Assembly (NCBI RefSeq): GCF_000015205.1
Contig: NC_008701.1
Span: 186,001 to 250,000, forward strand
Reading direction: 5' to 3'
DNA: 64,000 nucleotides
Origin: Pyrobaculum islandicum DSM 4184
GTDB lineage: Archaea; Thermoproteota; Thermoprotei; Thermoproteales; Thermoproteaceae
Shown here in pieces: positions 23,474 to 63,717 of the stretch (positions are counted from its first letter, which is position 1; each line of letters opens with the position of its first letter). A program made the translations under genes and the position numbers. The notes below the pieces were generated by a model that was not told the origin of the DNA, did not search any database, and saw only the letters and a list, made by a program, of their open reading frames with translations.

Positions 23474-23615
23474 AGTCCTCCGGTTAGTATATCAACATGG
23501 GCTTATGGATCCCGTTTGTCTCTAGGCACTCATTGTTTTCCATTCGTCACGCCTAGGGACAGGCGGAAAAAACGGTCTGGCGCCAAATTTATAATTTTCT
23601 ACATATAGAAATGTT

Positions 23616-24098
23616 GTGGGGGTTTTGCCTAAACCTTGGCTTGACTTGGCAGGGTACAAGAGGGTGAGACTTGAGGAGGCTAGGGCTGAGGCTGAGCTGG
23701 CTAGAAAGTTCCTTGAGCAAGGTCTATTGCGGAACGCCGCCGGTAAGGCGTTTCAAGCGTGGAAGGCTTTAGTGGCGGCGCTTGCCACAGAGAGGAGGGA
23801 AGAGCTGGCCAAGCTGTACCCTGGCAAGGTCAGGCTGAGAGGCAGGAGGGCGAGGGTCGACAGGGTAGATTGGATTATTGCAGTTATGCCGACGACATAC
23901 CTCAAGGAGGTGGCCATGGCGATAGGGGGGAGGGTAGACGCCTTGACAGACAAGGCGCTCTGGATACATCAGTATCAGTACAACGGGCCCGACCCCGAGG
24001 GGGTGTTGAGCCCGTATAGAAGCGACGAGACGGCGAGGAGAAACATCGAAACGCTGTTGCGTGGCATCGAGGAGATCCTCTCGTCGCTGGGCCTCTAG
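23616..24098 (+). CDS. PaREP1-family (HEPN-like) protein
   Basis: A 160-residue mostly helical protein of the PaREP1 family, a paralogous family expanded in Pyrobaculum and related to HEPN domains. Typical features are the N-terminal repeat of charged helices (LEEARAEAELARKFLEQG), AAGKAFQAWKALVAAL and the late HQYQYNGPDPEG followed by a final helix. The start is GTG at 23616, about 25 nt after a TATA-like AATTTATAATTTT. HEPN proteins often pair with nucleotidyltransferases in toxin-antitoxin systems, but no partner lies next to this gene. Its function is unknown. Confidence 0.78.
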   Translation: MGVLPKPWLDLAGYKRVRLEEARAEAELARKFLEQGLLRNAAGKAFQAWKALVAALATERREELAKLYPGKVRLRGRRARVDRVDWIIAVMPTTYLKEVAMAIGGRVDALTDKALWIHQYQYNGPDPEGVLSPYRSDETARRNIETLLRGIEEILSSLGL

Positions 24099-50601: not shown

Positions 50602-51852
50602 TTACGAGGTTAAAAGTGTGGTGGTCGCCGAAAAAGCGGGTTGTTTCTGGAGTAGCTCCCAGTAACGCTTTTTAGCCCATATCAGTGGCACGTTGTCTCT
50701 GTTGTCGTTGAAGCCGCAGACGGGGCATTGCATCCGCCTGTTATTCAACTCTTCCATCTTCGCGCCACAGCGGGGGCAGACGGTCGAGTACAGTCTTTCC
50801 TCAAGGTAAGGCAATCCATACCACCGTGCAAGCGTTTGCAAGCGTCTCCTCAGCTGGCCCAACCCGTCTAGGAGGTGTTTCTTCTCTCCACTCCAGTTGC
50901 CCTCCTTGAGCTCTCGATATGTTTCGTCTTCCATTGTGTCCACCACGATTGCGGCTTGGTGTTCCCTTGCTAATTTTATGATTTCGCCAACGATGTCTTT
51001 AACGACACCTCTTATCTTCCTAAACCGTCTGGATTTAAGGTGACGCGCCCTCTCCTCGAGACGTCTCCTTCTGGCGGGGTCCGCCTCCCTAGCGGCTTGC
51101 TCGTCGAGACGGCTTATCTCCTCGTGGAGTCTCCTCAGCTCTCTCACCGCGTCTTCGTCTAGAAGTCTCAATGTCTGTCTCAGCTTTCCGTCCACGAGGA
51201 GACCCATCATGACTCCATGATCCAATCTGTTCACATCAACGGCAACAACGGCCTTTGGTTCCACTTGTTGAACTTTGCGGGCAAAGACGAGCGCTATGTA
51301 GAGCTTTCCGTAGGTCGGCTCCTTCTTGCCCTTCAGCCTTTCTATGCCCAAAAACGCCAGTTTGAGTCTGGCGCCCTCTTGTAGTCTCTCTCTTATCCAA
51401 GCAACGTTGCCCTTCTTCAGCTCGACGGCGAAAGGCGGTATGCCGGTTTTCCGTACTCTGAGGACGCCGCTCTTTAGGCCGACGAAGACGGCTCTGCCCG
51501 CGTCCCTCTCGTTCTCGATCCTAAGTTGGGCGTCAAGGGGAACCGCTCGCCAAAATGCCGTCTCGCGCCAAAACATCTTAGCTTGCTTTACGAAGTACCT
51601 CCCCAACCCGTATTTGGGGAACGCCACATCTATTATCTTGACAGCCAACTCCCTCCTGTCGGGAGTAAGCAAGCGGTCTATCTCCTCTGTCGTCAGCTTC
51701 GGCTCCCCTTGCCCCGTGATTTCTTTGAGCAATGTTTTGGCGTACTCTTCAACGGCCAAGTGCATCCTCGTCACTAGGTCTAGGACGTCCGGTCGCTCTT
51801 CGACGAGACGCCACGGGATTTTGATCTTCAGTACTCTGTAGACTTGGTTCAT
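50602..51852 (-). CDS. tnpB: TnpB RNA-guided nuclease of an IS200/IS605 element
   Basis: A 416-residue TnpB (418 if ATG 51858 is used). The RuvC-like catalytic residues appear in order: Asp in AVVAVDVNRLDHG, an acidic residue in AIVVDTMEDETYREL, and Asp in CGFNDNRDNVPL. The target-nuclease zinc finger is CPRCGAKMEELNNRRMQCPVCG. Members of the family use an RNA from the element's right end to cut DNA that lacks the element. The third motif reads NRDNVPLIWA where many TnpBs have DRDVNAAxNI, so the C-terminus is unusual. It appears full length. Confidence 0.88.
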   Translation of the reverse strand: MNQVYRVLKIKIPWRLVEERPDVLDLVTRMHLAVEEYAKTLLKEITGQGEPKLTTEEIDRLLTPDRRELAVKIIDVAFPKYGLGRYFVKQAKMFWRETAFWRAVPLDAQLRIENERDAGRAVFVGLKSGVLRVRKTGIPPFAVELKKGNVAWIRERLQEGARLKLAFLGIERLKGKKEPTYGKLYIALVFARKVQQVEPKAVVAVDVNRLDHGVMMGLLVDGKLRQTLRLLDEDAVRELRRLHEEISRLDEQAAREADPARRRRLEERARHLKSRRFRKIRGVVKDIVGEIIKLAREHQAAIVVDTMEDETYRELKEGNWSGEKKHLLDGLGQLRRRLQTLARWYGLPYLEERLYSTVCPRCGAKMEELNNRRMQCPVCGFNDNRDNVPLIWAKKRYWELLQKQPAFSATTTLLTS

Positions 51853-51914
51853 GTGCATACAAGGCGTAGGAGAGAAAAACTAGTTAAAGAAACTCTCTTT
51901 CAGCTCTTTCGACA

Positions 51915-51947
51915 CACCTGCCTGACAGCGCCGCTGTCAGGCAGGTG
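51915..51947. repeat. Perfect 16-bp palindrome with 1-nt centre
   Basis: Left arm CACCTGCCTGACAGCG (51915-51930), one C, then its exact reverse complement (51932-51947). It lies 63 nt upstream of tnpB and 57 nt upstream of the divergent gene at 52004. It could be the left end of the IS element, an operator or a bidirectional terminator. A one-base loop is unusual for a transcribed hairpin and fits a cruciform or protein-binding dyad. Confidence 0.85.
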
Positions 51948-53970: not shown

Positions 53971-54273
53971 TTATTCAGTAACTAAATCTTTAATTACTTT
54001 TTTTCCTTTGAGAGGTTCTATGAAAATTTCGTCTGTCTTTAAATCAGATATTTTAACAGTACAGGCAAGTCTCGGAACGCCGTTGATTACCATAGCACAC
54101 GCGCCACAGACTCCCATGCGACATGCATATCTCATGGAGAGAGTACCGTCCAGTTTTTCTCTAATTAATAACAAGAGGTCAAGTATTGTGATATTTTCAG
54201 ATATCTCCACTATGTAGCTCTGGTAATATTGTGCCCCATTCCTCCCCCTCTTGACGTGCACCTTGACCCTCAT
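53971..54273 (-). CDS. Short [2Fe-2S] subunit of fumarate reductase/succinate dehydrogenase
   Basis: A 100-residue protein equal to only the N-terminal plant-ferredoxin-like domain of SdhB/FrdB. The [2Fe-2S] ligands are in YACRMGVCGACAMVING and RLACTVK. Ordinary SdhB/FrdB (about 230-320 aa) continues with a domain carrying [4Fe-4S] and [3Fe-4S] clusters; here the protein stops after GKKVIKDLVTE. The ATG overlaps the sdhA stop (TGATG). There is no downstream remnant of the missing domain, so the short form seems genuine. Electrons must reach FAD by another route or from a soluble donor. Confidence 0.85.
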   Translation of the reverse strand: MRVKVHVKRGRNGAQYYQSYIVEISENITILDLLLLIREKLDGTLSMRYACRMGVCGACAMVINGVPRLACTVKISDLKTDEIFIEPLKGKKVIKDLVTE

Positions 54274-56000
54274 CAATATCTCCTTGTCTCCGGCATCCAT
54301 CTGGTGATTTCCACTTTTGTCGTTGAGACGTGCAAAGTGTCGCCATATAGATAGTACACAGTGTGTACAAGCCAGTCGTCATCGCGCCTAGGGAAATCTA
54401 GACGGTAGTGAGCTCCTCTAGACTCTCGTCTCAAAAGGGCGCCTGTCAGCACGGCCTGGGCGGCGTATAACATGCCGTATAGCTCAAGTACTTCTCTCAA
54501 TTCCATATTGTAAATCCTCCCCCCGTCTGTAATCCTTACCTCTTTTAACATATCAAACAGCTTATTAAGTCTTCGTAGAGCCTCAGAGGTAACGCTACCG
54601 TGTCTAACTATGCCAGCTCCCCTCTCCATGAGGTCTTGTAGCTTAGCTCTTAAGCTAAGCGGAGTCATACCCCCGTGTTCATTTTTTATGAGCTTCGCTA
54701 TTCGCTCTTCCTCCTTCTGTATCTCTAGTCTTACGACAGTAGTGCTGAGGGCCGGCCTCCCCATTGCGTAGACAGCCGCCTCTTCTCCCACAATCCTCCC
54801 CCAGACGGCGCACTCAGTTAGGGAGTTGGAGCCCAGTCTGTTAGCCCCGTGTACGCCGGTAGAGGCGGCTTCCCCAGCCGCCCAGAGACCCCGGATCCAC
54901 TCACCCCTGTGGTTCAGCACCCTCCCCCGGACGTCTGTATATATTCCGCCCATGAAGTAGTGGACGGCCGGCCTCACGGGTATCAACTCCGTGGTTGGAT
55001 CAACCCCGGCATAGGTCTTAGAGAGCTCCAGGAGGAGGGGTAGCCTCTCCTCTAGTCTCTTCCTATCTATGTGCCTAACGTCGAGACCTACGTAGCAGAG
55101 GCCCGACTCGTGGAGGAACCCCCTACCCTCCATGCACTCGGTGATTATTGCCCTAGACACTACGTCCCTCGGCGCCAGCTCCATCTTCTCGGGGGCGTAC
55201 CTCTTCATGAACCTCTCGCCGTGTCTATTCACGAGGTAGCCCCCCTCGGCCCTGGCGGCCTCGCTTATCAATATGCCGCTTGGGACCAGCGCCGTGGGGT
55301 GCCACTGGACAAACTCCATATCTCTCAGCGCCGCGCCTGCCTTAAGCGCGTAGCCCAGAACCTCGCCCGTGTTTAGCCACCCCATGGTGGTCATACGGTA
55401 GAGTCTCCCCGCGCCCCCTGCCGCGATGACGCCGGCCTTGGCCACAAACCCCACCAGCTCTCCCCTCCTCATGTCTAACGCCACCAGGCCGTAGAAGACG
55501 TCGTTTTTCACCACTAGCGTCGTGACAAAGTACTCTTCGTAAAAATGGATATTGTGGAAAGACTTGGCATATCTATACAGCGCTGTCATTATGTAGAATC
55601 CTGTCCTATCCTTTGCAAAGACTGTCCTAGGCTTAGACATACCGCCGAACATCCTCAGACTGTAGGTTCCATCGGGGTCTCTGCTCCAGGGCACCCCGAT
55701 GGAGTCCAGGAACTTAACCTCGGCGGGGGCCTCCCTCGCCAGCACTATAGCCGCCTCTTGATCTACCAGGAAGTCCCCGCCCTTCACGGTGTCATAGGCG
55801 TGGAGCTCCGGGCTGTCGCCGGTCTTCTCCGGGTGTACCACCGCTGCCATCCCGCCCTCGGCGGAGATGCTGTGGGACCGGGGGCCCGAGGTCTTGGTGA
55901 CCACGGCCACCGAGACCCCCCGGAGGGCTGCGGCAACTGCTGCTCTCAGTCCAGCTAGGCCGCTGCCTATTACCACTACGTCATATATAAGTAAATCCAT
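54273..56000 (-). CDS. Fumarate reductase/succinate dehydrogenase flavoprotein subunit
   Basis: A 575-residue FAD protein that interconverts fumarate and succinate. FAD-binding VVVIGSGLAGLRAAVAA, the His for covalent FAD in PRSHSISAEGGMAAV, catalytic residues in FVQWHPTALVPSG and RPAVHYFMGGIYTD, and the C-terminal ANRLGSNSLTECAVWG. In the dicarboxylate/4-hydroxybutyrate cycle it should work as fumarate reductase. Adjacent cycle genes support this. No membrane-anchor genes (sdhC/D) follow, so the enzyme may be soluble or use an unlinked anchor. Confidence 0.95.
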   Translation of the reverse strand: MDLLIYDVVVIGSGLAGLRAAVAAALRGVSVAVVTKTSGPRSHSISAEGGMAAVVHPEKTGDSPELHAYDTVKGGDFLVDQEAAIVLAREAPAEVKFLDSIGVPWSRDPDGTYSLRMFGGMSKPRTVFAKDRTGFYIMTALYRYAKSFHNIHFYEEYFVTTLVVKNDVFYGLVALDMRRGELVGFVAKAGVIAAGGAGRLYRMTTMGWLNTGEVLGYALKAGAALRDMEFVQWHPTALVPSGILISEAARAEGGYLVNRHGERFMKRYAPEKMELAPRDVVSRAIITECMEGRGFLHESGLCYVGLDVRHIDRKRLEERLPLLLELSKTYAGVDPTTELIPVRPAVHYFMGGIYTDVRGRVLNHRGEWIRGLWAAGEAASTGVHGANRLGSNSLTECAVWGRIVGEEAAVYAMGRPALSTTVVRLEIQKEEERIAKLIKNEHGGMTPLSLRAKLQDLMERGAGIVRHGSVTSEALRRLNKLFDMLKEVRITDGGRIYNMELREVLELYGMLYAAQAVLTGALLRRESRGAHYRLDFPRRDDDWLVHTVYYLYGDTLHVSTTKVEITRWMPETRRY

Positions 56001-56083
56001 ACATATGCTTATTTTTATGGTTTAAATCGATTTTTTATAATTACAAAAAATGAAGAAAATGTTAATTTTCTATAATCTAGTTT

Positions 56084-57580
56084 TTATAACTTTTCTATCT
56101 CAGACTTCCTATGCAGTTCGGACGCCCCTGGTGGCTCGGGACCCCTCATTCTAGCTAGTCTCCTTGCTATCGTCTCGGCTCCTTGGAAGTCATATAACCT
56201 TGAGAAGACTATCTTCTGCGCCGCGGGAGACCCTGCGCCGTGGACTGACTCTATGAGGAAGCCCACACTGATACTTACGTTCTCCAGTAGTCTGAGCATC
56301 CTAAGCCTATCCTCTGCCGTGAACTCCGGCACGCCCTGGAGGTATTTTTCAACGAGGTGTTTAATCTCGGAATTCTTGAGGTCGAACTCGCTAGGCGCCG
56401 TCCCGATTATGCCGCCTGCAATGTCATGTGCTAGCCTTGCTATTTCATAAGGGAACCTAGACACCAAGTGTTTCGTGACGTTGGCATACATCGGGTTTAC
56501 CCACCAGCCACCGTCTTTCAGTAGCTTCTTCCCCTCCCAGCTGGCGGCGAGACCGGCGCTGTACATGCTCTCGTTTAGAAACACCATCTCGGTCAACTTA
56601 TCCACGATGTTGGGCTTGTCAGCGACGCCGATCTGCTTCGCCAGGTTGTAGGCCGCCCCTATGATCACGTCGCCCAGCCCCGACTTACATCCGGCGTAGC
56701 CCTGGCGGTGGAAGGCGGAAAAGACCTCCACCAGCGGGCCCGCCCACTGCCACTCCTGGTAGAGGAAGACCCGGTCCCAGGGCACGAACACGTCCTCGAA
56801 TATTATGAGGCCCTCGTGGTGGGACATATACGGCAACCCGTCGATGTCGCCCTCGGCCTTCCTCACGTCGTTTATCTGCCTACCCACTACGACCGTGACG
56901 CCGGGGCTGTCCAGCGGCACGGCGAAGGCCACAGCGTAGGGGGCATCCTTCTCAGTCATAGCCCTGGTGGGCATCACGATCACCTCGTCGACTAGGGCTA
57001 CGCCGGTGATGTTGGCCTTCGCCCCTCTGACGATTATGCCGTCGTCTCTCTCCTCCACCACTCTGACGTAGGCGTCTGGGTTAGGTTGCTCGTGGGGTCT
57101 CAGAGACCTCACGCCTCTCGCGTCTGTCATAGCCCCGGCCAGCGCAAGGTCCCGTCTTTGAACCTCCTCTAAATATTGAAAGAAGCGCTCTCTGTAAATC
57201 GGCTTACCCTTCTCGGCCATCTTCCCAGTGATTATGTATAGCGTATTTAACGCGTCCCACCCGACGCACCTCTGGAAGCATGTCCCAGTCTTGTGGCTGA
57301 GGGCTCTGAGCAACTTGACCTTAGCCACAAGGTCTTGGGGGCCCTGGTGTATGTGTACAAACCTGTTTATCTCCTCGTTTATAAAGGGGCTGTAGGCCCT
57401 GGCCAAGTCGCGGGTGTCCTCCTGGAATGCGGCATCGAAGGTAGCCTTAAAGGAGAGGAGAGACGGCTTTAGAAAGAGATTTGTTGTCACGTCTTCAACT
57501 CTCTTGCCCATAACATATACCTTTACATGTCTCCTATTTCGAAGACCTTCGACGTATTGTTCCCCTGTACGTAGCCCCAT
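56084..57580 (-). CDS. 4-Hydroxybutyryl-CoA dehydratase
   Basis: A 498-residue FAD and [4Fe-4S] enzyme that converts 4-hydroxybutyryl-CoA to crotonyl-CoA by a ketyl-radical mechanism. It is the key enzyme of the 4-hydroxybutyrate cycles. Cluster ligands appear as [14 protein letters not shown] and in [15 protein letters not shown] (His and Cys, next to a conserved Lys). Flavin-site segments VIVMPTRAM and [13 protein letters not shown] are also seen. Length is normal. It is transcribed divergently from the aldehyde dehydrogenase, across a region with a 25-bp dyad. Confidence 0.96.
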
Positions 57581-57601
57581 GCCATTGCGGCAAGAGCCAT
57601 A

Positions 57602-57626
57602 TATAAAGTTTCTAAGAAACTTTATA
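57602..57626. promoter_or_regulatory. Perfect 11-bp inverted repeat, candidate operator for the CO2-fixation genes
   Basis: TATAAAGTTTC (57602-57612), TAA, then GAAACTTTATA (57616-57626). It begins 22 nt from the dehydratase ATG, so it covers the expected TATA/BRE of that gene, and lies 78 nt before the aldehyde dehydrogenase ATG. A bound protein would block or fix polymerase at the dehydratase promoter. Confidence 0.7.
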
Positions 57627-57667
57627 ATATTAAATAATTATAAAAATTTTCACATTTATATTATATC

Positions 57668-57686
57668 AGAAAAATTATTAAAAGAC
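57668..57686 (+). promoter_or_regulatory. Promoter region of the aldehyde dehydrogenase/acyl-CoA ligase operon
   Basis: A/T-rich AGAAAAATTATTAAAAGAC about 20-35 nt before the ATG at 57704, suitable as BRE/TATA for the two-gene operon. Confidence 0.45.
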
Positions 57687-57703
57687 TATGGAAAGAAACT
57701 GTG

Positions 57704-59125
57704 ATGAAAGATGTAAAAGATTTAATTGTTATAGTTAATCCAGCTACAGAGGAGGTAATCGCCGAGCTTCCCAAAGCTACGAGAGAAGACGTGAGAAGGG
57801 CCATAGATGCGGCGTGGGACGCCTTCGCCAGCTGGTCGGCCCTACCGCTGAGGAAGAGGACCCGCGTCTTGCTGAAGACCGCCGAGCTTGCCGAGACCGC
57901 CAGGGAGGACCTCCTCAAGACCCTGGTGGCGGAGTCCGGGAAGCCCATTAAAGACGCCGAGGCGGAGATCACGAGGGCAATAGAAATCTTCCGCTCCAGC
58001 GCGGAAGAGGCCAAGCTGATCCTAGAGGGGTCGGTCCCCAGGGTAGACGCCTACGAGTACCCTATCGGCAACGAAAACAGACTCGTGGTGGCCGTGAGAG
58101 AGCCCGTGGGCGTCGTCGGGGGGGCCCTCAGCTACAACAACCCCGTCTCCACTTTCGCCCACAAGGTGGCCCCCGTCATCGCGGCGGGGAACACAGTCGT
58201 CGTGAAGCCTTCCTCCTACACCCCCCTCACCGCCCTTAAATTCCTGGAGATTATGAAGAGGGCTGGGGTGCCCGAGGGCGTGGTAAACGTAGTTGTAGGC
58301 AGCGGGGAGGAGATCTTCGATGAGCTTATCCAGAGCGACAAGGTCGCTGGGATAAACTTCACCGGCAGCACCGCGGTGGGGCTACAAGTGGCAGCTAAGG
58401 CCGCCTCCAGGGGGAAGAAGTTCATGATAGCACCCGGAGGTTCCGACCCGGCCGTGGTGTTTAAAGACGCCGATTTAGACGCCGCGGCTAAGATCATCGC
58501 CAGAGCCCGGTACGAAAACGCGGGCCAGAACTGCAACGCCACCAAGAGGGTTTTCGTGGAGCGGGAGGTCTACCCCAAGTTCGTAGAGCTCCTCCTCGGC
58601 TATGTGAAAGCCATAAGAGTAGGCGACCCCATGGACTACAGCACAGACATGGGTCCCCTCATCTCCGAAAAGATGGTGAGGGCCATGGACAGCGTAGTGA
58701 AAGACGCCCTCGAGAAAGGCGCCAAACTGGCGGCGGGGGGCAGGAGGATGAACAGGAGGGGCTACTTCTACGAGCCCACCGTCCTCCTCTTCGACGGCGA
58801 CGCCGAGGCTAAGGCGCTTAGGGAGGAGGTCTTCGGGCCGGTTCTGCCCGTGGTGCCCTTCGAGGGGGAGGAGGAGGCCGTCCGCCTCGCCAACGCCACC
58901 CAGTACGGCCTACAGTCTGCTGTCTTCACCTCGGACTACAGGAAGGCGCTTAGGGTGGCGAGAGCCATAAAGGCGGGGGCGGTCATGATAAACGACAGCA
59001 CCAGGGTGAGGTTCGACGCTCTTCCTTACGGCGGCGTTAAGATGTCGGGCTTCGGCTGGAGAGAGGGCGTGAGGTCGACCATGATCTACTACACAGAGCC
59101 CAAGTTCCTCGTCTTCGGGCTTTGA
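57704..59125 (+). CDS. CoA-dependent aldehyde dehydrogenase, probable succinyl-CoA reductase
   Basis: A 473-residue member of the aldehyde dehydrogenase superfamily. The catalytic cysteine is in NAGQNCNATKR and the NAD-site motif is FTGSTAVG. The usual general-base glutamate segment LELGG is replaced by IAPGG, so the base is Ala. Loss of this residue is unfavourable for hydrolysing acids but compatible with CoA-acylating chemistry. In Thermoproteales an enzyme of this family in this gene neighbourhood reduces succinyl-CoA to succinic semialdehyde; the context here (dehydratase, CoA ligase, alcohol dehydrogenase) supports that. The start is ATG, with GTG one codon upstream. Confidence 0.85.
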   Translation: MKDVKDLIVIVNPATEEVIAELPKATREDVRRAIDAAWDAFASWSALPLRKRTRVLLKTAELAETAREDLLKTLVAESGKPIKDAEAEITRAIEIFRSSAEEAKLILEGSVPRVDAYEYPIGNENRLVVAVREPVGVVGGALSYNNPVSTFAHKVAPVIAAGNTVVVKPSSYTPLTALKFLEIMKRAGVPEGVVNVVVGSGEEIFDELIQSDKVAGINFTGSTAVGLQVAAKAASRGKKFMIAPGGSDPAVVFKDADLDAAAKIIARARYENAGQNCNATKRVFVEREVYPKFVELLLGYVKAIRVGDPMDYSTDMGPLISEKMVRAMDSVVKDALEKGAKLAAGGRRMNRRGYFYEPTVLLFDGDAEAKALREEVFGPVLPVVPFEGEEEAVRLANATQYGLQSAVFTSDYRKALRVARAIKAGAVMINDSTRVRFDALPYGGVKMSGFGWREGVRSTMIYYTEPKFLVFGL

Positions 59126-59126
59126 T

Positions 59127-61016
59127 ATGTCCGCGGAGTTCATAGAGGTATACAAGAAGTCGCTGGAGGACCCCATCGGCTTCTGGGAGAAGCAGGCGGA
59201 GAGACTGTACTGGAGGGAGAGGTGGAAGAAGACCTACGACGACTCCAACCCCCCCTTCTACAGGTGGTTCGTAGGCGGCAAGACCAACATCTCCTACAAC
59301 GCCCTAGATAGGCACGTTAAAGGCGGGAGGGCCAACAAGGCGGCGTTGATCTGGGTCTCGGCGGACGGCGCCACCAGGGTGCTCAGGTACTGGGACCTCT
59401 ACAGAGAGGTCAATCGTTTTGCCGTGTTTTTGAAGAGCCTCGGCGTAGAGCGGGGCGACAGAGTGGCGATATACATGCCGATGATACCCGAGGCCATGGT
59501 GGCGATGTTGGCCGTGAACAGAATTGGGGCGGTGCACACAGTGATCTTCTCAGGCTTCGGCCCCCAGGCGCTCGCCGAGAGGATAAAAGACGCCGAGGCC
59601 AAGGTGGTGATTACGGCAGACGGCATGAGGAGACGCGGCAGGGTGATCCCCCTGAAGCCCACCGTAGACGAGGCGCTGAAGATTGTGGGCAACGACATAT
59701 TCACGGTGGTGTACAAACACACGGGGGTCGAGGTCCCCATGAAGCAGGGCAGAGACCTCTGGTGGCAAGAGGAGATAGCCAAGATCCCCCCAAACACCTA
59801 CATAGAGCCCGAGTGGGTGCCCGGGGAGGCGCCGCTCTTCATACTGTACACATCAGGCACAACCGGCAAGCCGAAGGGCATACTCCACTTACACGGCCAG
59901 TATATGGTGTGGGTATGGTACGCCTTCAACCACCTCACCGGAGCCGAGAGGGAGTTCAGAGAGGACATAGTCTTCTTCTCCACAGCCGACATAGGCTGGA
60001 TCTCCGGCCACCACTACGGCGTCCACGGCCCCCTCCTCAACGGCCTGACCGTGCTATGGTACGAGGACGCCCCCGACTACCCCCACCCCGGCATCTGGTG
60101 GGAAATCGCCGACACCTACAAGGTCACACACATGTTGTTCTCCCCCACGGCCATCAGGCTGTTGATGAAATACGGCGACGAGTGGCCTAGGAGGTACAAG
60201 CTAGACAGCCTAATGGCCCTCTACTCCACCGGCGAGGTCCTCAACGAAGAGGCATACAACTGGATGAGGCGGGAGATATGTAGGGGGAGGTCCGACTGCC
60301 AGATAGCCGACATATGGGGCCAGACCGAGACCGCTTGCTTCGTCACAGCCCCCGGCTCCATGAACCTAGGCGGCTTCCGCTACAAATACGGCTCGGTGGG
60401 CATGCCCTACCCCACCCTTAACCTACAGATCCTAGACGACGACGGGAAGCCGCTTCCGCCCGGCGCCAAGGGACACGTGGTGGCCAAGCCGCCGCTGCCC
60501 CCCGCCTTCTTACACACGCTGTGGCGCGACCCGGAGAGATACGTCAAGTCCTATTGGTCCCGCTTCCCCGGCTACTACTACACTGGCGACCTCGGCTACA
60601 TAGACCAAGACGGGCACCTCCACATAATGGGCCGCTCCGACGACGTGATAAAGGTGGCCGGCCACAGGCTCTCCACCAGGGAGGTGGAGGACATACTCAC
60701 CAGTCACCCCGCCGTCGCCGAGGCCGCCGTGGTGGGCGTGCCAGATGAAGTCAGAGGCGAGGTGCTGGGGGTCTTCGTGGTGCCCAAACAAGGCATGAAA
60801 ATCACGGAAGAGGAGGTGGTTAAACACCTCAGGAACTCCCTTGGCCCCGTCGCCGTAGTTGGAAAAGTCGTGATACTGGATAAGCTCCCCAAGACCAGGA
60901 CAGGCAAGGTCATGAGGAGAGTGCTGAGGGCTATGGCCACCGGGCAACCCGTGGGCGACCTAAGCACCCTAGAAGACGAGGAGGCCCTTGAGGAGCTAAG
61001 GAAAAAACTCAGCTAA
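59127..61016 (+). CDS. AMP-forming acyl-CoA synthetase, probable 4-hydroxybutyrate-CoA ligase
   Basis: A 629-residue acetyl-CoA-synthetase-like enzyme with every core motif: ATP loop LYTSGTTGKPKGILH, A5 WGQTETACF, A7 YTGDLG, A8 GRSDDVIKVAGHR and the adenylation lysine segment LPKTRTGKVMRR. It begins 1 nt after the aldehyde dehydrogenase stop, so the two are one operon. The order CoA reductase, ligase, then alcohol dehydrogenase nearby points to activation of 4-hydroxybutyrate; acetate or propionate activity is also possible for this family. It contrasts with the motif-less homologue at 18998. Confidence 0.88.
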   Translation: MSAEFIEVYKKSLEDPIGFWEKQAERLYWRERWKKTYDDSNPPFYRWFVGGKTNISYNALDRHVKGGRANKAALIWVSADGATRVLRYWDLYREVNRFAVFLKSLGVERGDRVAIYMPMIPEAMVAMLAVNRIGAVHTVIFSGFGPQALAERIKDAEAKVVITADGMRRRGRVIPLKPTVDEALKIVGNDIFTVVYKHTGVEVPMKQGRDLWWQEEIAKIPPNTYIEPEWVPGEAPLFILYTSGTTGKPKGILHLHGQYMVWVWYAFNHLTGAEREFREDIVFFSTADIGWISGHHYGVHGPLLNGLTVLWYEDAPDYPHPGIWWEIADTYKVTHMLFSPTAIRLLMKYGDEWPRRYKLDSLMALYSTGEVLNEEAYNWMRREICRGRSDCQIADIWGQTETACFVTAPGSMNLGGFRYKYGSVGMPYPTLNLQILDDDGKPLPPGAKGHVVAKPPLPPAFLHTLWRDPERYVKSYWSRFPGYYYTGDLGYIDQDGHLHIMGRSDDVIKVAGHRLSTREVEDILTSHPAVAEAAVVGVPDEVRGEVLGVFVVPKQGMKITEEEVVKHLRNSLGPVAVVGKVVILDKLPKTRTGKVMRRVLRAMATGQPVGDLSTLEDEEALEELRKKLS

Positions 61017-61141: not shown

Positions 61142-62230
61142 TTAGGGTACGACTAGAGGCCTTATGGCTTTGCCGCTTCTCAACGCCTCAACCGCCTGGT
61201 TTATCTCCTCCAGTCTATAGGTGGGGCCGGCCAGTTTCTCCGGCTTTAGAAGACCCCTCTTCACCATGTCCACAACCGCCGGCAGATCTACCCTCGGCCT
61301 AGCGCCGTAGCTCCCCACTATCTGGATCCCCCCACGCACCACCCTGGCGAGGCCCAGGGGGGTCTTGTGGCCAACCGGCATGAGGCCCACCAGCACCACC
61401 CTCCCGCCGAGCGCGGCCATGTCCACGGCCATCTGTATCGTGTCGTCGTTGCCGACGGCCTCCACCACGACGTCTGCCCCCCTGCCCTCCGTCAAATCTC
61501 TCACGGCCTTGACCGGGTCTCCCTCCCTCGTGTTCACCACCTCCGCCCCCAGCTCCGCCGCCACCTTCAGCTTGTCGGGGTTGCGGCCTACGGCGATGAC
61601 CCTCGCCCCCACGGCCTTGGCCACCTGCACCGCCGAGAGCCCCACGCCCCCTGTCCCCACCACCACAACGGTGTCGCCGGGAGAGACTGAGCCGGAGTTC
61701 ACCACGGCGCCGTACGCCGTCAAAAAGGCGCAGCCCAACATGGCGAGCTCCTGCCTCCCCCTAAGCCCCTCGGGGAGCTTAGCCACCGCTGTGGCGGGCA
61801 CCACCGACGCCTCGGCCCATGTGCCGCCGAGAAACGCCCTCACCTCCTCGCCGCTCCTCTTCCTAAGTCTTGTAGTGCCGTCTAGAAGCGTCCCCTTTAG
61901 CCTAACCTGGGCAAAGGTCTCGCAGAGGTTCTCCCTCCCCCTTACGCAGTTTCTACAGCGGCCGCAGGGCCAGACGAAGCTCGTCACCACCCAGTCGCCC
62001 GGCTGCAAGTTTTTCACCCCCGGCCCCACCTCCTCCACCACGCCCACGGCCTCGTGGCCGGAGACCACCGGGGTGGGCACGGGGGTGGCCCCCTCTAGCA
62101 CGTAGAGGTCGCTGTGACAAACACCTGCCGACTTTATCCTAACTAGAACCTCTCCCTCTTTTGGCTTTTCTATGTCTATATCCTCTATTACCAACGGAGT
62201 GTTGTATTGAAACAATACCGCCGCCTTCAT
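61142..62230 (-). CDS. Zinc-dependent alcohol dehydrogenase, probable succinic semialdehyde reductase
   Basis: A 362-residue medium-chain dehydrogenase. The catalytic zinc site has Cys in AGVCHSDLY and His in SGHEAVGVVEEVG. Structural zinc ligands are in CGRCRNCVRGRENLC. The NAD(P) fold is VVVVGTGGVGLSAVQVAKA. It converges on the CoA ligase gene. In the dicarboxylate/4-hydroxybutyrate cycle an enzyme of this class reduces succinic semialdehyde to 4-hydroxybutyrate, and the neighbours fit that step. The motif set alone would allow other aldehydes. Confidence 0.87.
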   Translation of the reverse strand: MKAAVLFQYNTPLVIEDIDIEKPKEGEVLVRIKSAGVCHSDLYVLEGATPVPTPVVSGHEAVGVVEEVGPGVKNLQPGDWVVTSFVWPCGRCRNCVRGRENLCETFAQVRLKGTLLDGTTRLRKRSGEEVRAFLGGTWAEASVVPATAVAKLPEGLRGRQELAMLGCAFLTAYGAVVNSGSVSPGDTVVVVGTGGVGLSAVQVAKAVGARVIAVGRNPDKLKVAAELGAEVVNTREGDPVKAVRDLTEGRGADVVVEAVGNDDTIQMAVDMAALGGRVVLVGLMPVGHKTPLGLARVVRGGIQIVGSYGARPRVDLPAVVDMVKRGLLKPEKLAGPTYRLEEINQAVEALRSGKAIRPLVVP

Positions 62231-62302
62231 AATGCGCAGTTTATTTAGTTTTAAAATTTTTACAATTTAAATTATAAATATAGATGTATATATTAGGTAA
62301 AC

Positions 62303-62331: not shown

Positions 62332-63717
62332 ATGATCCCCCGCCTAATGTGTACACAACATCCAGATGCTACAGTTAAAGTAACAGCAAATGAAGAAGTT
62401 GACGAAGCACTTGTGGCATATACCGCATATGGATGCGACGAAGTTATGATAGACTACGAGGGGAAGACCACCCCCTATTCACAGCCTAAGGATATTACTG
62501 TAAAGGCGTATGAGGCCGGCCTTCCACTCGGCGAGAAGTTCTTCTTAACTCCACGTATGCCAAATCCACGGCTGGAGGAATTTGAAAGATCGATGCTTAC
62601 CCTCGAGGCGGCGATACTTGCCAACTACTTCTCTGTAAAACTTATGGGTAGACAAGCAATTAGATGGATAGTTCTGCCAATGGTAACGGATATCGAGACT
62701 CTCGGGCTGGTTTATAGGATGTTGCTACATAAGACAGAAGCTTATATAAAAGAAACTGGGGTAAAGCTAGAGCCCCCCGAGCTCATACCGTTGATAGAAG
62801 ACGCAATTGCACAACTTAAGGCAGATGAGCTAATCAGCGGCTTGTTAAAACAAATGGCGCAACAGCCGCAGTATATAAGGCTTTTCCTCGGGAAGTCGGA
62901 CTCTGCCGTTAGACACGGCCATTTAGCTTCTGCACTAGCTATAGTGGCAACACTTTCAAAAATGAGAAGTGTTGAAAAATCGCTAGGGATAAAGATCTAC
63001 CCCATCTTAGGCATGGGATCTCCGCCTTTTAGAGGCGGGATAAACAACCCATCTCTTTCACACCTAGAAACTATACAGTACGTAGGATATTACACAGTCA
63101 CTGTTCAATCTGCTGTGAGATACGACACGTCATATGATGAATACATCAAGGTGAGAGAGACTATACTAAATGCGTGTTGTCTTCCGAGTAGAGAGATAAA
63201 CCTCCCCGAGCTAGAGGAGATAATTACAAAGGCATCATCTACATATAAGTCTGTTGTTGTAAAATTTGCAGACAGAATCGTACAGATGGCGAGGCTAATC
63301 CCTGGGACTAGAGATAGAATAAGTTGGACCGTATATGGCAGAAATATCACTGCAGAAGATAGAGTTGTAAATATGCCGAGGGCTATCGTCTATACATCTG
63401 CTTGGTACGCCATGGGTCTACCCCCGACATTTCTAGACGCGCCAACTGTCGTAGAACTTGCTAAATCTGATAAATTAGATCTAGTTCTCAAAGCACTTCC
63501 GTCGTTAAGAAGAGAGTGGGAATATGACGCTCAATTTTACGACCCACAAGTGGCGTCTAGATATACGTCTGAAGATTTTGTAAAAGTAGTAAATGAAATG
63601 CTTGATTACCTCGGGATAAACCTCAGGGCCAACGGCACCTATCTCTCGCTTCTTAGAATGAATCGCAATGAGTCAAATATCTTGGCAATGGGTAAATATA
63701 GGAAATTTCTAGGCTAG
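62332..63717 (+). CDS. ppcA: Archaeal-type phosphoenolpyruvate carboxylase
   Basis: A 461-residue archaeal-type PEPC, which is about half the length of bacterial enzymes. It makes oxaloacetate from PEP and bicarbonate, the second carboxylation of the dicarboxylate/4-hydroxybutyrate cycle. The N-terminus MIPRLMCTQHPDA, CDEVMIDYEGKTTP, LGMGSPPFRGGINNP and the C-terminal LLRMNRNESNILAMGKYR are family signatures. The ATG follows a TATA box by about 20 nt. Codon use is more A/T-rich than in the adjacent cycle genes. Confidence 0.96.
   Translation: MIPRLMCTQHPDATVKVTANEEVDEALVAYTAYGCDEVMIDYEGKTTPYSQPKDITVKAYEAGLPLGEKFFLTPRMPNPRLEEFERSMLTLEAAILANYFSVKLMGRQAIRWIVLPMVTDIETLGLVYRMLLHKTEAYIKETGVKLEPPELIPLIEDAIAQLKADELISGLLKQMAQQPQYIRLFLGKSDSAVRHGHLASALAIVATLSKMRSVEKSLGIKIYPILGMGSPPFRGGINNPSLSHLETIQYVGYYTVTVQSAVRYDTSYDEYIKVRETILNACCLPSREINLPELEEIITKASSTYKSVVVKFADRIVQMARLIPGTRDRISWTVYGRNITAEDRVVNMPRAIVYTSAWYAMGLPPTFLDAPTVVELAKSDKLDLVLKALPSLRREWEYDAQFYDPQVASRYTSEDFVKVVNEMLDYLGINLRANGTYLSLLRMNRNESNILAMGKYRKFLG

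Follow-up and report, generated by a model that had tools for sequence, protein, structure and literature searches.

The intergenic region between the divergent dehydratase and succinyl-CoA reductase operons of Pyrobaculum islandicum carries an AT-rich palindrome at positions 57621-57644 of the 64-kb stretch of DNA analysed here (the window), and this palindrome, judged by comparison of orthologous promoters, is the conserved element of the region, whereas the 25-bp perfect dyad at 57602-57626 highlighted in an earlier note is not. We consider it probable that the palindrome is an operator for the two divergent operons, bound by a family-restricted activating regulator, most likely DhcR. The conserved box itself has most likely been described already. 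The focus thereby shifts from a striking but species-specific palindrome to an element kept by selection and placed at exact coordinates, and the near-fixed distance between this element and the succinyl-CoA reductase start offers a simple, testable sign of an activator in a CO2-fixation pathway.

The gene for 4-hydroxybutyryl-CoA dehydratase (56084-57580, minus strand; Pfam HpaB_N and HpaB; orthologue of Tneu_0422 by cluster order) begins with an ATG at 57580, a start that is presumably leaderless. Also on the minus strand are the genes for the flavoprotein (54273-56000) and iron-sulphur (53971-54300) subunits of fumarate reductase, both recognised from their open reading frames and by family search. 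The plus strand carries succinyl-CoA reductase (57704-59125, aldehyde dehydrogenase family by Pfam, with an alternative GTG start at 57701), 4-hydroxybutyrate-CoA ligase (59127-61016, acetate-CoA ligase family) and an archaeal PEP carboxylase (PEPC; 62332-63717, from the open reading frame and family search); succinic semialdehyde reductase (zinc alcohol dehydrogenase family) lies at 61142-62230 on the minus strand. For the ligase and the semialdehyde reductase the family comes from a search and the role from the cluster. The roles in the cycle were assigned after the cluster Tneu_0418-0422 of P. neutrophilum (PMC3189178), which P. islandicum also carries according to PMC12794621.

Within the intergenic, the dehydratase TATA box TTTATATA was read from the sequence at 57600-57607 on the minus strand, where the alignment of 13 orthologous promoters also shows a TATA-like element, and the putative BRE, AGAAAC, was placed at 57608-57613 on the same strand, in the inner part of the dyad, from the layout of archaeal promoters. 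The 25-bp dyad TATAAAGTTTCTAAGAAACTTTATA can be written TATAAAGTTTC-TAA-GAAACTTTATA; its arms pair over 12 bp around one central nucleotide and its core, GTTTCTTAGAAAC, follows the pattern GTTTC-N3-GAAAC. The earlier note had thus located it correctly, as a perfect dyad inside the divergent promoter region that spans the BRE position and most of the dehydratase TATA box. Because TTTATATA and AGAAAC fall there, one arm of the dyad is core promoter. In the other arm the outer six bases, 57621-57626, are the end of the AT-rich palindrome, and the two palindromes have these six bases in common. Read on the minus strand, the AT-rich palindrome is TTTATAATT-ATTTAA-TATTATAAA, of the general type TTTATAATT-ATTTAA-AATTATAAA, with its centre at 57632.5. 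On the opposite side a putative succinyl-CoA reductase TATA-like element, TTATTAAA, is placed by sequence and alignment at 57675-57682 on the plus strand. We rejected the reading that the AT-rich box is simply the TATA box of succinyl-CoA reductase, since it lies about 70 nt from the start and this separate TATA-like element is closer. Between 57645 and 57700, many genomes carry a second, loosely similar AT stretch (acatatat, acatacat) between the box and the BRE, and this stretch could belong to a more extended binding site.

To describe conservation, strong dehydratase matches in 13 of 19 family genomes were combined with that of G037, one further genome of the order which belongs to another family and has a dehydratase gene (our guess is Vulcanisaeta), giving 14 promoters of 120 bp upstream; a fourteenth family genome, G018, has a distant dehydratase match only. 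The AT palindrome was first picked by eye in the alignment of the 13 family promoters and then scored by a matrix from whose training the tested genome and its near copy were excluded, with 500 shuffles per promoter. As the block had been picked by eye from the same promoters, this leave-one-out procedure is not fully blind. The palindrome stood above the shuffles in 13 of 13 family promoters, with scores of 22.0-35.3; no shuffle was as good in ten genomes, and 1, 1 and 2 of 500 were as good in G006, G009 and G003, respectively. The P. islandicum box, a probable DHC box, scored 32.4 when neither P. islandicum itself (G000) nor G004 contributed to the training, a score that none of 500 shuffles reached. 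It is absent from the G037 dehydratase promoter, where the score was 1.1 and 416 of 500 shuffles did as well. The stretch 57621-57644 is the sole place in the P. islandicum genome within one mismatch of the 20-mer consensus, exact copies of which occur at the dehydratase of G016 and upstream of the ligase in G013. Weak copies carry little weight because the box is AT-rich: at up to three mismatches the 19 genomes hold 65 matches compared with 38 for the reversed pattern, and P. islandicum holds 2 compared with 3. One such weak match, at 23588-23611 (score 13.9) before a 160-aa open reading frame (23616-24098), is probably due to chance.

The box is held at a nearly constant distance from succinyl-CoA reductase. 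From its centre to this start we measured 68.5-71.5 nt in 12 of 12 genomes (SD 1.1), using starts chosen by homology (automatically chosen starts gave other values, 34.5, 60.5 and 61.5, in G003, G009 and G010), as compared with 45.5-68.5 nt (SD 6.7) to the dehydratase start in 13 genomes. The variances of the two spacings differ, with a Levene P of 0.008, or of 0.03 in the nine genomes sharing one box, from which the near copy G009 was dropped, values which are too favourable because the genomes are related. Where the ligase has its own box, in three of ten genomes, the distance is 70.5 (G013) or 71.5 (G003 and its near copy G009). For the semialdehyde reductase, the three sites with scores over 17 give 69.5, 71.5 and 76.5, and seven weaker sites give 31.5-69.5; for PEPC the distance is 58.5, 58.5 and 62.5 at the three best sites, and for the fumarate reductase gene frdA the sites with scores over 15 spread between 45.5 and 126.5. 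A spacing of about 70 nt is therefore not a general rule across the cycle genes. The fixed distance at succinyl-CoA reductase may be a new observation.

These positions bear on how the box would work. Activation is the most likely mode, given that the box lies upstream of BRE and TATA on both sides and that the succinyl-CoA reductase distance is fixed; a site held at about -70, well upstream of BRE/TATA, would be easier to reconcile with an activator than with a repressor blocking TBP/TFB. In the mechanism that we propose, 57621-57644 would be the operator common to the dehydratase/fumarate reductase and the succinyl-CoA reductase/4-hydroxybutyrate-CoA ligase operons; in autotrophic growth the bound regulator would activate by helping to recruit TBP, TFB and RNA polymerase, and it would release the box once acetate or a comparable substrate is available. 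The opposite sign of control is possible but appreciably less likely: a regulator bound near the BRE could hinder TBP/TFB or RNA polymerase during growth on organic substrates and leave under autotrophy. The geometry on the dehydratase side is compatible with such repression, as 7 bp separate the box from the BRE position in P. islandicum, close enough for hindrance, and the spacing there varies over 45.5-68.5 nt. On the succinyl-CoA reductase side, however, a gap of about 25 bp or more lies between the edge of the upstream box and the TATA-like element, and a distance held within 3 nt in 12 genomes is a better fit to contact with the transcription machinery.

The reading of the AT palindrome as an operator is in keeping with the genes at which the box is found. 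Several cycle promoters within one genome carry separate boxes in G013, G002, G010 and G016. In G002 a box lies in the succinyl-CoA reductase/frdA intergenic and the separated dehydratase has its own; in G013 the ligase is set apart and has an exact box. The intergenics between PEPC and the semialdehyde reductase reach a score of 15 in four of ten genomes (G010, G013, G015 and G016). They score only 13.1 in P. islandicum and 11.4 in G004, and with 13.1 as the best intergenic score there is no box of note before PEPC in P. islandicum. At 62249-62288 in this intergenic, TTTACAATT and AATTATAAA occur as half-sites separated by 2 bp, compared with 6 bp in the box. Inside the window the further box copies are weak only, including one before frdA (56034-56057, plus strand; score 21.3), which is doubtful because the close relative G004 has no copy of note there.

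Beyond the cluster, we scored 12 of 13 loci for PPDK (L104 was left out) and 16 of 16 for PEP synthase, each with 300 shuffles. PPDK promoters have a box at 111-114 nt in five of the six Pyrobaculum tested (0-6 of 300 shuffles as good), and a weak one in the sixth, G010 (17 of 300). Of the nine Pyrobaculum with a scored PEP-synthase promoter, five carry the box there at 64-65 nt (0-9 of 300 shuffles as good), among them P. islandicum (score 18.1, 5 of 300), and a sixth, G002, has its box at 86 nt. No clear box was seen in the PPDK and PEP-synthase promoters of the Thermoproteus side, nor at PEP synthase in the remaining genomes. A low shuffle count is not proof in itself, since the PEP-synthase promoter of G017, a genome without the candidate regulator described below, reaches 4 of 300 at a score of only 8.6. 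Box-like sites were also seen at loci L029 and L045, before genes that on reading appear to encode acetyl-CoA synthetase, in G007 (20.0) and G010 (25.1).

The same data bear on whether a specific regulator is needed at all. We regard it as unlikely that the palindrome works without one, as an AT-rich upstream element or as a docking place for chromatin proteins, for example Alba. The box is indeed AT-rich and weak matches to it are common; Ramos-Vera and colleagues (2010) reportedly also recovered Alba with the corresponding promoter region in P. neutrophilum. In addition, AbfR1 was found in a 2025 study (PMC12529230) to bind non-specifically where a specific regulator had been proposed. Against this stand the conservation of the sequence, which goes well beyond its dinucleotide composition, and the retention of the box at separate cycle genes after rearrangement.

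The core pattern of the 25-bp dyad, GTTTC-N3-GAAAC, occurs once in the window, with a mean of 0.06 in shuffled sequence. The whole genome of 1,826,402 bp has it at one place, and the reversed pattern is no rarer there, with a single occurrence of its own. Twenty shuffles of the 64-kb window contained on average 0.3 perfect dyads with arms of at least 11 and a loop of at most 10, nested versions being counted separately, and shuffling the 123-bp intergenic 5000 times gave a perfect dyad with arms of at least 11 in 29 cases; on these counts the dyad is unusual for this spot, but not beyond chance genome-wide. The earlier note had named a lack of conservation in orthologous intergenics as the outcome that would refute its reading, and this is the outcome obtained. 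The full dyad is absent from the 13 other orthologous dehydratase promoters, whose best matches have 6-10 mismatches of 22: 6 in G004, the dehydratase of which is 95% identical (1 of 500 shuffles as good), and 7-10 in the remaining 12. The partial match in G004 is to be expected from shared descent. The 13-bp core is found at five places in the 19 genomes, at a dehydratase promoter only in P. islandicum. At up to three mismatches the full dyad has a single place in the P. islandicum genome, and its sole further match in the 19 genomes is one place in G015. The orthologue comparison and the single genomic place rule out the dyad as a conserved autotrophy box. It is probably a species-specific composite that arose by chance: the outer end of the conserved box (TATAAA) is united with the facing BRE and TATA box of the dehydratase (AGAAAC-TTTATATA), a coincidence restricted to P. 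islandicum. A role as RNA hairpin or terminator was rejected because the dyad lies upstream of both starts, which reportedly are leaderless in P. neutrophilum according to Ramos-Vera and colleagues (2010).

It is quite improbable that the dyad is a recently gained P. islandicum operator, through which another regulator would block the dehydratase BRE/TATA. Its perfect 12-bp arms do lie exactly over the core promoter, and their rarity in shuffled intergenics is in line with such a role. Nevertheless, all 13 of the other orthologous promoters lack it, a 13-bp core present at one place in the genome leaves it without a regulon, and the TATA box and the conserved box explain its two ends. Two stacked sites, in which the family-wide box would drive both operons and the species-specific 25-bp operator would let a second regulator shut the dehydratase/fumarate reductase arm alone, strike us as very improbable.

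One longer perfect dyad is present in the window, a GC-rich palindrome of 33 bp at 51915-51947, just upstream of a TnpB-like open reading frame (50602-51858, minus strand). Its 27-bp core, 51918-51944, has 21 places in P. islandicum at up to three mismatches (none for the reversed control), two in G004 and none in the other 17 family genomes. In some copies both arms have changed together, and 15 copies that were read have in common a longer, imperfect palindrome of about 100 bp. This looks like a dispersed palindromic element, perhaps a non-autonomous transposon or else a structured RNA.

Concerning the regulator that would act on the AT palindrome, Ramos-Vera and colleagues are said to have isolated an 18-kDa protein with the P. 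neutrophilum version of this promoter region in 2010; in 2015 Leyn and colleagues reportedly gave this protein, Tneu_0751, the name DhcR and assigned it a DHC box as its site of action. A candidate for this protein was found in 60 kb of G004 by extrapolating gene numbers from Tneu_0422 and picked by its place, size and look. It lies at G004:C1:668773-669243, has 157 aa and 18.1 kDa (range 18.0-18.1 kDa), and is a candidate for Tneu_0751 by map position and mass only. The P. islandicum orthologue (G000:C1:1571885-1572352) is 84% identical. The family-restricted regulator binding the box would most likely be DhcR, with this 18-kDa protein as the candidate. Among 45 genomes of the order, 15 contain a match to it, and these belong to just two genera, which we take to be Pyrobaculum and Thermoproteus. 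When 84,980 species were scanned with two short peptide patterns, a method that overlooks relatives, six loci were returned: two in Pyrobaculum, three in Thermoproteus and one in an uncultured Thermoproteales. The candidate is matched in all 13 genomes with the box, in G010 only with frame shifts, and G037 has neither box nor protein; this co-occurrence follows the phylogeny. G011 and G012 have the candidate, and no dehydratase was found in them. The frame-shifted gene (L091, G010:C1:65655-66098) belongs to a metagenome-derived genome that keeps its boxes, and reflects either decay or an assembly error.

The candidate passed no Pfam cut-off, and its P. islandicum orthologue had no NCBIfam match. 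A structural model (mean pLDDT 71.5, pTM 0.34) predicts a winged helix in the C-terminal part, with a pLDDT of 80-89. A search of PDB sequences with the alignment of the candidate gave nothing convincing (best E 0.11) and Foldseek gave no match at E of at most 0.001; a further structure comparison returned winged-helix chains over residues 98-151 with Z up to 6.0, a modest value. In the N-terminal half, where pLDDT is 56-60 over the first 40 residues, the model suggests by eye a ribbon-helix-helix, with no match in support. Autoregulation was rejected, as none of the 18 loci around the matches to the candidate has a box scoring at least 14.

Among known systems, the closest is the DHC box/DhcR regulon of Thermoproteales, reportedly described by Leyn, Rodionova, Li and Rodionov in 2015 (J Bacteriol 197:2383), and the AT palindrome is most likely that published DHC box. 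Like the AT palindrome, the DHC box is reportedly a palindrome upstream of dicarboxylate/4-hydroxybutyrate cycle operons in Thermoproteales, with a regulator that is taxonomically narrow in its distribution. The AT palindrome shows the traits of such a regulon, being conserved in orthologous promoters and shared by several cycle operons per genome, whereas the 25-bp dyad does not, with none of 13 other promoters and no other cycle gene carrying it. The suggestion that this intergenic holds a palindromic autotrophy box thus stands for the conserved box, and falls for the dyad with which it had been linked. Another close counterpart is the orthologous intergenic between the divergent operons of Thermoproteus (Pyrobaculum) neutrophilus, where the dehydratase is 95% identical and the box reads TTTGTAATTATTTAACATTATGAA; unlike in P. 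islandicum, the 25-bp dyad is missing there, with 6 mismatches of 22. According to PMC12529230, Leyn et al. also predicted an HHC box as a sister proposal for Sulfolobales, and the specific binding of HhcR (AbfR1) to this box was disputed in 2025, when non-specific binding was found. The HHC box resembles the AT palindrome in having been proposed as a motif before genes of the 4-hydroxybutyrate cycle (PMC12529230), and differs from it in the crenarchaeal order concerned, in cycle and in regulator family.
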